Source of the DNA: Vandiemenella viatica
Lineage: Eukaryota > Arthropoda > Insecta > Orthoptera > Morabidae
Direction: 5' to 3'
Assembly (NCBI GenBank): GCA_031002005.1
Contig: CM061921.1
Span: 147,903,283 to 147,967,282, forward strand
Length of the DNA stretch: 64,000 bases
Positions 2,746 through 61,240 of the stretch are shown here, piece after piece (within the stretch, counting starts at the first letter, position 1; each line of letters starts with the position of its first letter). Under the pieces are notes generated by a model. It worked only from the letters and a program-made list of their open reading frames with translations. It was not told where the DNA came from and ran no database searches. A program made the position numbers and the translations under genes.

Positions 2746-2786
2746 TATGTATTATGATTACTATTATTATTGCAATATTGTTGTAG

Positions 2787-2935
2787 GCCATTTTTCCGCA
2801 GTTGCTCAGTAAATTAATTCATAAAATGACGCCAATGCAACTGTATTATTGAATAGGTTTATTACCGTACGCGTTTCGCCTCTCCTCGAGGCATCATCAG
2901 GGACGAATCTATTTTAAAATTTACATTTGATTTAC
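2787..2935 (-). mobile_element. Hammerhead-bearing repeat (solo copy)
   Basis: Contains a hammerhead-like core at 2864-2906. At 2791-2815 it carries GGCCATTTTTCCGCAGTTG, a block also found beside the ribozyme of the palindromic element at 33 kb (33191-33210) and, diverged, at 29 kb. In ribozyme orientation (minus strand) this shared block is the 3' end. The 5' limit beyond 2935 is not clear and no target duplication was found. Confidence 0.55.
2864..2906 (-). ncRNA. Hammerhead ribozyme motif (type I-like, minimal stem III)
   Basis: Minus strand: CTGATGA (2894-2900), unpaired T, stem II GCCTC/GAGGC with loop GAGGA, then GAAA (2874-2877), then CGCG and TA. Conserved core bases are all present and stem II is a perfect 5 bp helix. 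Stem III would be A-U plus C-G around a two-base loop. Stem I is imperfect: the base before CTGATGA is C where G would be needed. Known family: minimal type I hammerheads of Penelope-like elements and retrozymes. Activity is unknown. Confidence 0.6.
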
Positions 2936-25589: not shown

Positions 25590-26080
25590 CTATTGAAATG
25601 AAGTGTTCACGGGTGTACCACCGGATAGTGTTTTGCAAACACGATATTTTGACGACGACTAGCTCCGTCATCTTCACCAGGTGTCGAGAAATCTGCACAG
25701 GTCGGCTGACCGTCGGATACTGAGACAGCACAGGTGCCGCATCTCCTTATATAGCCCAGTACAGTTGTTCGTTGCGGGCCGAGGAAGTTAATAATGGACC
25801 GTTTGTGGCGGTTTCTGAACATGGGTGCCACGCTCTCTGGGTAGAGTTGCCAAGGCTAGTTTCCATGCCTCGCTAAGACATAGCCCACTATCCCTTTTGT
25901 AGGTATCAGCACGAGGAGGTGCGGCACCTGGGCTGTCTCAGTATCCGACGGTCAGTCGACCTGTGTTGATGTCTCGACACCTGATGAAGACGACGGAGCT
26001 AGTCGTCGAAATATCGTGTTTTCAAAACACTAACCGGCGGTACACCCGTGAAGACTTCATGTCAAGTATACGCCGGGAAA
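25590..26080. mobile_element. Foldback element with hammerhead-like core in each arm
   Basis: Left arm about 25597-25750, right arm about 25917-26062, inverted copies (ACGGGTGTACC..CCGG and its complement at the two ends), with a 165 bp unique middle. The arms contain CTGATGA-stem-GAAA on the right (25981-26011) and a degraded copy on the left. No target duplication was established. Confidence 0.75.
25965..26045 (+). ncRNA. Hammerhead-like motif (core and stem II intact, stem I unclear)
   Basis: CTGATGA at 25981-25987, A, stem II GACGAC/GTCGTC (25989-25994 with 26002-26007), GAAA at 26008-26011, then a strong hairpin GTGTTTT/AAAACAC beneath an AUA/UAA helix as a longer stem III. I could not pair the flanks into a stem I in the standard register. 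The left-arm copy has lost core bases (CTGGTGA, CAAA). It may be a relative or a decayed form. Confidence 0.4.
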
Positions 26081-29054: not shown

Positions 29055-29162
29055 CTTAAAAATTTAACAACTGGATATTGTGAGCCATTTCCTCAATTGC
29101 GAGTTAATCAATTTTATAAAGGTTATTAACACGTCAATGTAATTTAATTTTGTTTTATATTG

Positions 29163-29206
29163 TGTCATACGCGTTTCACTCTATTTCCAGAGTATCATCA
29201 GCGACA
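29163..29206 (-). ncRNA. Hammerhead ribozyme motif, left arm
   Basis: Minus strand: stem I TGTCG before CTGATGA (core at 29195-29201), stem II ACTCT/AGAGT with loop GGAAAT, GAAA at 29174-29177, CGCG, TA as the cleavage dinucleotide, then TGACA closing stem I by 4 pairs and one G-U. Confidence 0.75.
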
Positions 29207-29754
29207 TCTGATTGGTATTTATACATTTAGTTAGTCACATTCCATAAAAAAAAAAAACAATATAAAGTTTAGTTGAAATTAATTTTACTTACATGTGACT
29301 TTTTTAATTTGTTCTCATGGTCAGGGTTAACTTCTCCATGTAGATTTTTTGTAGGATTCATTGTGGAATCTTCTCAAGATATAAAGCACTACACTGCACC
29401 GACAATATTACAAAGTATCACTATTATTTACAATCACTATCGCTTTCAAACCATGAGTTTGTAAACACAATCTATGGACTTGTGAAAAACTTAGCGTGGT
29501 GTTCACACTGTCATGATTTGAAAGCGATAGTGATAGTAAATAATAGTGATACTTTGTAATATGGTCGGTGCAGTGTAGTGCTTTATATCTTGAGAAGATC
29601 CCACAATGAATCCAACAAAACCTACATGGAGAAGTTAACCCTGACCATGAGAACAAATTAAAAAAGTCACATGTAAGTAAAATTAATTTCAACTGAACTT
29701 TATATTGATTTTCTAATTTAATGTAACTAACTAAATTTACAAATACCAAACAGA

Positions 29755-29797
29755 TGTCGCTGATGATGCTCTGGAAATGAGTGAAACGCGTACGACA
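29755..29797 (+). ncRNA. Hammerhead ribozyme motif, right arm
   Basis: Stem I TGTCG (29755-29759) with CGACA (29793-29797), a perfect 5 bp; CTGATGA at 29760-29766; stem II GCTC/GAGT (one G-U); GAAA at 29783-29786; minimal stem III in ACGCGT; cleavage expected after A29792. Confidence 0.75.
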
Positions 29798-29867
29798 CAA
29801 AATAAAACAAAATTAAATTACATTGGCATGTTAATAACCTTTATAAAAAAAATTGCTTAAAAACTTA

Positions 29868-60115: not shown

Positions 60116-60982
60116 TTAATAGCCGGTGTAACCTCCAGAATTTTGAATGCAAGCCTGCAAACGTGAATGCATTGTGTCATACAGGTTTCGAATGTCACTT
60201 TGTGGTATGGAGTTCCATGCTTGTTGTACTTGTGCTGTCAATACTGGGACGGTCAGTGCTGGCTGTGGATGATGCTGGAGTTGTCGTCCAATGATATCCC
60301 ATACGTGTTCAATTGGAGACAGATCTGGTGATCTCGCAGGCCAAGGTAACATGTCGACACTCTGTAGAGCACGTTGCGAGACAACAGCGGTATGAGGGCG
60401 AGCGTTATCCTGTTGAAAAACTCCCCCTTGAATGCTGTTCATGAATGGCAGCACTACAGGTTGAATTACCAGACTGACGTACAAATTTGCAGTCAGTGTG
60501 TTTGGTATAACCACAAGAGTGCTCCTGCTGTCATAGGAAATTGCTCCCCAGACCATGACTCCAGGTGTAGGTCCAGTGTGTCTAGGCCGCAGACAGTTTG
60601 GTTGCAGGCGTTCCCCTGGCCTCCTTCTGACCAACACTCGGCCATCACTGGCACCAAGGCAGAACCTGCTTTCATCAGAAAACACAACAGATCTCCACTC
60701 CGTCCTCCAATGAGCTCTGGCTTGACACCACTGGAGTCGCAAACGGCGATGGCTTGTAGTCAGTGGAATGCACGCTACAGGGCGCCTGGCTCGGAGCTGT
60801 CCTTGAAGTAACCGATTTCCTATGACAGCAGGAGCACTCTTGTGGTTATACCAAACACACTGACTGCAAATTTGTACGTCAGTCTGGTAATTCAACCTGT
60901 AGTGCTGCCATTCATGAACAGCATTCAAGGGGGAGTTTTTCAACAGGATAACGCTCGCCCTCATACCGCTGTTGTCTCGCAA
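60116..60982 (-). CDS. Tc1-like transposase, catalytic part, fused to antisense leader
   Basis: Open frame of 288 codons. Its first 55 or so residues (from 60982) come from the inverted arm read antisense and are not transposase. From about 60820: RRLRLQWCQARAHWR, VVFSDESRFCLG (first Asp, near 60695), PGVMVWGAISY, then QQDNARPHTA (second Asp, near 60395) and SPIEHVWDIIGRQL (Glu, near 60300), ending QNSGGYTGY. The D-D-E residues are intact, but the N-terminal DNA-binding domain is missing, so it cannot act alone as a normal Tc1 transposase. I count 32 residues between the second Asp and the Glu where standard Tc1 has 34. Confidence 0.75.
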   Translation of the reverse strand: MRDNSGMRASVILLKNSPLNAVHEWQHYRLNYQTDVQICSQCVWYNHKSAPAVIGNRLLQGQLRARRPVACIPLTTSHRRLRLQWCQARAHWRTEWRSVVFSDESRFCLGASDGRVLVRRRPGERLQPNCLRPRHTGPTPGVMVWGAISYDSRSTLVVIPNTLTANLYVSLVIQPVVLPFMNSIQGGVFQQDNARPHTAVVSQRALQSVDMLPWPARSPDLSPIEHVWDIIGRQLQHHPQPALTVPVLTAQVQQAWNSIPQSDIRNLYDTMHSRLQACIQNSGGYTGY

Positions 60983-61240
60983 CGTGCTCTACAGAGTGTC
61001 GACATGTTACCTTGGCCTGCGAGATCACCAGATCTGTCTCCAATTGAACACGTATGGGATATCATTGGACGACAACTCCAGCATCATCCACAGCCAGCAC
61101 TGACCATCCCAGTATTGACAGCACAAGTACAACAAGCATGGAACTCCATACCACAAAGTGACATTCGAAACCTGTATGACACAATGCATTCACGTTTGCA
61201 GGCTTGCATTCAAAATTCTGGAGGTTACACCGGCTATTAA
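60842..61240 (+). pseudogene. Duplicate of the transposase C-terminal half in the right arm
   Basis: 132 codons identical to the end of the minus-strand frame apart from one Val/Ile change: QQDNARPHTA, SPIEHVWD, QNSGGYTGY. It has no catalytic first Asp and no DNA-binding domain; it is the inverted copy, not a separate gene. Confidence 0.85.

Follow-up and report, generated by a model that had tools for sequence, protein, structure and literature searches.

Head-to-head copies of a Penelope-like element in Vandiemenella viatica pair one tailed with one tail-less end

The window analysed here is a stretch of 64,000 nucleotides (nt) from the morabid orthopteran Vandiemenella viatica (GenBank assembly GCA_031002005.1, contig CM061921.1, positions 147,903,283 to 147,967,282 of the forward strand), and the subject of this study is a near-palindrome of 789 bases at 29067-29855 that carries a hammerhead-type motif facing outward in each arm. 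The palindrome is probably (at a rough probability of 0.72) two 5'-truncated 3' ends of a Penelope-like element (PLE) that are joined head to head and arose when both cut strands of the target primed reverse transcription, one at the end of an optional tail and the other at a tail-less site. In every pair of arms in which both ends could be scored, one end is tailed and the other tail-less, and it is this regularity that makes it likely that the element was copied in from both cut strands. The parts of the window copy, in window coordinates, are listed below; the arms are described as pseudo-long terminal repeats (pLTRs).

29055 to 29066, plus strand: left target-site duplication, CTTAAAAATTTA, from flank comparison
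29067 to 29468, minus strand: left arm, a 5'-truncated PLE 3' end (pLTR), tailed; 29066-29468 aligned to reference 486-887
29067 to 29104, minus strand: tail of about 38-45 nt, on the left arm only; inner limit estimated from the end of the right arm
29163 to 29206, minus strand: left-arm hammerhead-type motif; stem I TGTCG/TGACA, core 29168-29201, predicted cut 29168/29167
29465 to 29471, no strand: head-to-head junction; the two arm matches overlap by 4 nt
29465 to 29855, plus strand: right arm, a 5'-truncated PLE 3' end (pLTR), tail-less; 29465-29859 aligned to reference 454-848
29755 to 29797, plus strand: right-arm hammerhead-type motif; stem I TGTCG/CGACA, core 29760-29792, predicted cut 29792/29793
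29856 to 29867, plus strand: right target-site duplication, CTTAAAAACTTA, from flank comparison

A repeat search resolved the two arms into four collinear inverted pairs (29112-29468 against 29499-29848) that are 87-94% complementary. Together with the motif searches this confirms the layout proposed in an earlier reading of the letters alone (the sequence-only reading), which had placed a near-palindrome with two outward-facing motifs at these positions. That reading did not mention the tail, by which the left arm extends ∼40 nt further outward than the right one. It also held that the copy had been inserted with duplication of its target, consistent with the 12-bp direct repeats, CTTAAAAATTTA and CTTAAAAACTTA, that flank the palindrome and are identical at 11 of 12 positions (chance expectation, 0.19 matches). 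As a duplication the flank pair scores 9, a value attained by 1.0% of mismatched flank pairs. The palindrome copy in the window contains neither endonuclease nor reverse transcriptase (RT) sequence, in line with the absence of coding content that had been reported for it.

The pairing of end types was scored in related loci. The 3.72-Gb assembly was searched with two queries, a 101-nt piece and the whole element, and the best 40 of 1083 and the best 40 of 2339 first-look candidates were scored; the 101-nt query gave thirty 3.1-kb loci, L002-L030 among them, and the query with both arms gave 39 loci of 5-6 kb (L031-L069). The scored loci are samples and not a census. Outer ends were mapped on one real copy, L056, on which positions 826-848 define the tail-less and 882-898 the tailed end. 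Both arms were present in 42 of the 64 loci scored, and in all 42 they lie head to head. L011 (arm cut by the locus end) and L023, L024 and L058 (one end not typable) were set aside, as were L053, L014, L017 and L027, duplicates of L046, L009, L016 and L012, respectively; L027 was called a duplicate of L012 on one flank and the mirrored structure. Stray matches were ignored in L013, L047 and L050, the inner arm of L034 was typed by hand, and L022 was retained although its diverged flanks (79-81%) are common to L057 and L028. Each of the 34 non-duplicate pairs in which both ends were typable combines one tailed end, with a tail of ∼40 nt, and one tail-less end, an outcome whose probability under equal odds and independence is 2 to the power −34. 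Among the 22 loci with a single arm, 10 are tailed and 12 tail-less; as the two end types are about equally common there, chance pairing would give about half discordant pairs.

Two further searches, which returned coordinates only and covered a short distance around each match, gave the same picture. Among 40 tailed arms of the same family, seven had a close opposite arm, and all seven partners stop at query positions 182-189, before the tail. In a second family, represented in the window by the motif at 2868-2900, a close opposite arm was found for 6 of 40, and all six stop at 112-117, while the main matches reach 147-186. No tailed-tailed pair was seen in either list, though tailed queries would rank such pairs higher; in the search of the same family the known pairs L052 and L047 were listed without their partners. 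Across the 34 pairs and the two coordinate-only samples, 47 of 47 pairs obey the rule of one tailed end. The tail-less complementary DNA (cDNA) is the longer of the two in 22 of the 34 pairs, counted by eye, which is not significant, and folds of the start-site region were no better than those of shuffled sequences. In L040, a tandem copy, the tail end lies within a predicted 7-bp stem, GGUCCAC/GUGGACC, formed by the tail and the sequence that follows it (L040:2735-2830), again not better than shuffles.

The two arms of a pair appear to derive from one event. Target-site duplications with a score of at least 9, and matches of 9-16 nt, were found in 25 of the 34 pairs, compared with 1.0% of 1122 flank pairs taken from different loci. 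As the duplication brackets the pair, the pair rather than each arm is the inserted unit. Divergence between arms has a median of 8.4% within and 14.5% between pairs (29 pairs; 0 of 5000 permutations); L021 was misaligned in this test and kept there. The window arms differ by 7.0%, and none of the other arms compared (0 of 62 and 0 of 61) is closer to either. Differences between two common states account for 50 of 581 within pairs against 1253 of 4794 between pairs, L021 being excluded from this count, and the changes within pairs are mostly private, as expected if both arms had been copied from one source. The two arms of a pair thus share a source. The 20 junctions printed are all different, showing an overlap of a few nt, none, or a short filler, and the inner ends are more than 60 nt apart in 21 of 34 pairs. 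In L052 both joined arms extend back into the endonuclease, with filler between them. Two features of individual loci were also recorded. L028 carries at its head-to-head junction a foreign insert of 263 nt (L028:1731-1993) with a GGGTTCGAATCC box; by this box it resembles what we take to be a tRNA-derived short interspersed element. A deletion subfamily, in which the arms lack ∼73 nt (699-770 of reference L035), is represented in L002, L010, L012, L021, L022, L025, L028 and L030, and the deletion is present on both arms where both span it (L012, L025 and L028).

Judged by their sequence, the arms in the window are pLTRs, the non-coding 3' end of a PLE, and the earlier description of a short non-autonomous palindromic retroelement is not supported, as the longer copies of the family include an endonuclease and pieces of an RT. 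Each arm unit spans ∼390-430 nt and has a defined outer end, and ∼120 nt upstream of it, in the same orientation, lies a GIY-YIG endonuclease frame (L070 and L056). PF01541 matched above its cut-off in L070 (E 6e-7) and L056 (E 3e-5), and below it in L046 and L068; endonuclease matches occur in 29 of the 39 loci L031-L069. RT pieces lie upstream of the endonuclease in L034 and L042, the order RT, endonuclease, arm being present in L034, and in L040, the one tandem case, a tailed arm runs straight into RT coding sequence. Inspection of L040 by eye revealed RYVDD and DGLPMG, which we take to be RT motifs. A protein search with the N-terminal open reading frame of L040 returned nothing at E ≤ 0.001, and a PDB sequence search with three PLE pieces returned nothing. 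The family combines a GIY-YIG endonuclease, a pLTR (inverted, and tandem in L040) with an optional tail, and target-site duplications that are short and vary in length. Between the arms the gap ranges from none to more than 1 kb. Endonuclease sequence and RT pieces in longer copies, the variable gap and the unique junctions together argue that the palindrome is one of the results that insertion can have, rather than a family that replicates as such.

The preferred mechanism, priming from both cut strands, would proceed as follows. The endonuclease would cut both strands of the target with a stagger of ∼9-15 nt, and each target 3' end would then prime on the element RNA at one of two internal sites that are ∼40 nt apart. 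Both cDNAs would run toward the 5' end of the RNA, which may be one molecule or two, and stop early; joining of the two cDNAs, 5' end to 5' end, would give the observed order of duplication, inverted arm, arm and duplication. Cutting, extension and the two start sites have counterparts in vitro, where the purified PLE protein of Anolis cuts and extends both target strands, and its RT starts at two adjacent internal sites of the RNA that correspond to the ends of the optional genomic tail (PMC11167929). From the pairing of ends we infer that the two target strands use different RNA start sites, although no strand difference was seen in that study.

Several observations weigh against priming from both strands or against the assignment on which it builds. 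Nine of the 34 pairs lack a duplication at a score of 9. The inner ends lie within 60 nt of each other in 13 of 34 pairs where 6.4 are expected (p 0.003), an excess that a shared template end would explain and hairpin priming would too. The tail-less end of L032 adjoins an AT repeat and may be eroded. RVT_1 scored E 0.005 and 0.04 on the RT pieces, under the Pfam cut-off, and the RT part of the PLE identity therefore rests on gene order and on motifs read by eye. Finally, 22 of the 64 loci have one arm only, with no partner arm in the fetched DNA. Among 14 single-arm loci whose inner end falls inside the mapped reference, seven have a duplication score of at least 9, the 99th percentile of the null being 9. 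In L010, L030 and L055 an inverted stub, 8-15 nt long and of the other end type, was recognized by eye next to the inner copy of the duplication. In L002, L019 and L066 there are 3 nt or nothing between the arm and that copy (in L019 and L066 the duplication immediately adjoins the arm), and in L051 the place is taken by 36 nt of unrelated filler. The inverted stubs in three of the seven indicate that some of the single copies are pairs in which one arm is very short, though this need not hold for all. A partial check of single-arm loci placed 11 of 12 within the null, with L058 alone above it; L055 was recognized only through its duplication.

Among the alternatives, twin priming as in LINE-1 is quite unlikely. 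In this model both strands are copied from one tandem RNA, synthesis beginning at the tail end of a downstream unit for the first strand and at an upstream unit for the second. The model would draw on the tandem arrangement of PLEs (PMC11167929), to which the continuation of the L040 tailed arm into RT coding sequence can be added, and both the A-rich character of the tail-less site and the shared source of the arms fit it. Alone, however, twin priming leaves unexplained why the second start is in every case the tail-less one and never that of the tail, and an RNA of at least two units would be required for those tail-less arms (L052, L053 and L068) that reach into the endonuclease. Decidedly unlikely, too, is hairpin self-priming, the published explanation of head-to-head PLE copies (PMC3846280), in which an antisense transcript or a cDNA forms a hairpin and serves as its own template, the resulting palindrome then being inserted. 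Self-priming accounts for the head-to-head order and the palindromic junctions, for arms that share a source and for inner ends that are nearly equal more often than expected. It predicts equal outer ends, however, and the outer ends differ in all 34 pairs, which counts strongly against it. Inner ends more than 60 nt apart in 21 of 34 pairs and the arms of L052, which both reach the endonuclease with filler between them, also speak against it.

That the palindrome is itself a short non-autonomous retroelement or retrozyme replicating as such, as the sequence-only reading had it, is scarcely credible. The many copies, the lack of coding sequence in the window copy and the hammerhead motifs would suit such an element, but each of the 20 printed junctions is unique, endonuclease sequence stands beside the arms in 29 of the 39 loci L031-L069, and copies that share one junction and inner structure at scattered sites were not seen except for duplicated loci that also share flanks. 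These features reject a separate palindromic family; an animal retrozyme is rejected by the inverted and not tandem arms in 42 of 42 two-arm loci and, again, by the adjacent endonuclease. Two independent adjacent PLE insertions, or a DNA transposon or foldback element with long inverted ends, would also place inverted arms between direct repeats, but can be given next to no probability when the duplication brackets the pair in 25 of 34 cases and varies in length, the ends are asymmetric in 34 of 34, the arms have a GIY-YIG endonuclease next to them, and a transposase belonging to them was not found.

The hammerhead motifs bear on the choice of template. The string CTGATGA, stem II, GAAA, CGCG, TA occurs at 29168-29201 (minus strand) and 29760-29792 (plus strand), with an expectation of 0.00 for a pattern that had itself been drawn up from these very letters. 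A generic descriptor (4-bp stem I, CTGATGA, an optional 1-nt bulge, stem II of 4-8 bp, GAAA, a short stem III and TH) gave three matches in the window, two of them the palindrome motifs, and none in 100 Markov sequences of 64 kb with the same dinucleotide make-up. Stem I is as first reported, perfect on the right (TGTCG/CGACA) and with one G-U on the left (TGTCG/TGACA). The descriptor, the conserved core and stems I and II all support a putative minimal type I hammerhead of the PLE type in each arm, as had been proposed. The suggested comparison with hammerhead covariance models was negative. At the gathering score Rfam had no match across the whole window, and between 28900 and 30000 no hammerhead family appeared up to E 10, a negative that is expected of a motif almost devoid of stem III. 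At that threshold the palindrome matched the plant-type microRNA models MIR6217 and MIR837, both below cut-off (MIR6217 at 29376-29591, minus strand, E 1e-17, 81 bits against a cut-off of 110), an artefact that any long inverted repeat gives.

Two features of the palindrome motifs are distinctive: an unpaired T between CTGATGA and stem II, which had escaped the sequence-only reading, and the self-complementary ACGCGT that replaces stem III and would let two motifs share one. Most of 75 distinct copies retain the core and ACGCGT, and 91.4% of cells pair in these copies; for the C-G pair of stem III the figure is 60 of the 73 cells with letters. Covariation of the hammerhead pairs within these copies is not above shuffles (0.078 against 0.085), as expected for decaying dead copies, while a single comparison by eye of stem II in the palindrome family and in the 2868-2900 motif shows three two-sided changes. 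Thermodynamic folds of the two palindrome motifs were no better than shuffles (z 0.11 and −1.01). Luense et al. are said to have described, in 2017, dimer cleavage of minimal PLE hammerheads. The motif lies ∼65 nt (tail-less) or ∼105 nt (tailed) upstream of the start sites, and the predicted cut is upstream of both. Arm starts do not cluster at that cut, with 1 of 68 (L022) within 10 nt of it, and cleaved RNA is therefore probably not the usual template, there being no sign of such use. In vitro, cleavage is not needed for PLE insertion (PMC11167929).

A wider proposal, tentative and on balance unlikely, is that PLEs always integrate two-endedly, through a paired ribonucleoprotein that cuts both strands of the target and makes one cDNA per start site, and that the minimal hammerhead, with its self-complementary ACGCGU where stem III would be, is kept to dock two template RNAs or units and not chiefly for cleavage. 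If this were true, the tail and the head-to-head copies would be two faces of one reaction.

Elsewhere the window contains the copy of the second family referred to above.

2770 to 2912, minus strand: single tailed arm of a second, related PLE-like family; motif core 2868-2900, limits approximate

Its motif (2868-2900, minus strand) is a third CTGATGA...GAAACGCGTA motif in the window; stem I is unpaired, and the tail region is clearly similar to that of the palindrome family. A further minimal hammerhead-like motif, with stem II GACGAC/GTCGTC and almost no stem III, is located at 25981-26019 (plus strand) in an unrelated repeat, and sequence similar to this repeat adjoins the PLE arm of L059. 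At 60119-61237 the same transposase-like frame, presumably of a mariner- or Tc1-like gene, is found on both strands (60119-60988, minus; 60368-61237, plus), forming an inverted duplication.

With regard to known systems, animal retrozymes (PMC7229834) resemble the arms in that their repeats, a few hundred bp long, carry type I hammerheads, but are tandem and non-autonomous with canonical hammerheads, whereas the window arms are inverted parts of an element that has an endonuclease of its own. The minimal PLE hammerheads of Cervera and De la Pena (reviewed in PMC6155905) are likewise type I, have almost no stem III and lie in the pLTR, and dimer cleavage is described there for newt motifs; the putative motif of the palindrome differs in its unpaired T after CTGATGA and in the self-complementary ACGCGT in place of stem III. 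In Penelope of Adineta vaga (PMC3846280) inverted pLTRs with a tail are also present, but the copies are few, the tail is called optional and self-priming on an antisense template is favoured, whereas here exactly one end is tailed in 34 of 34 pairs. Inverted pLTRs and the optional tail are therefore already published, and the strict rule that a tailed end is paired with a tail-less one is apparently new; it was not met in the open-licence texts searched and read, including PMC11167929, PMC3846280, PMC12910113, PMC7229834 and PMC6155905, and may be in print elsewhere. The closest parallel is Poseidon of Anolis carolinensis (PAc, PMC11167929), which shares two start sites that delimit the tail, extension of both strands, a minimal hammerhead nearby and AT-rich targets. 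The PAc data, however, concern one protein in vitro, with the products of one event unpaired and no strand difference, whereas the Vandiemenella genome shows one start of each kind per insertion. The rule of one tailed and one tail-less end joins genomic anatomy to the start sites and both-strand extension observed in vitro for the Anolis enzyme, and sharpens the question of whether, at a single target, the start sites differ between the two strands.
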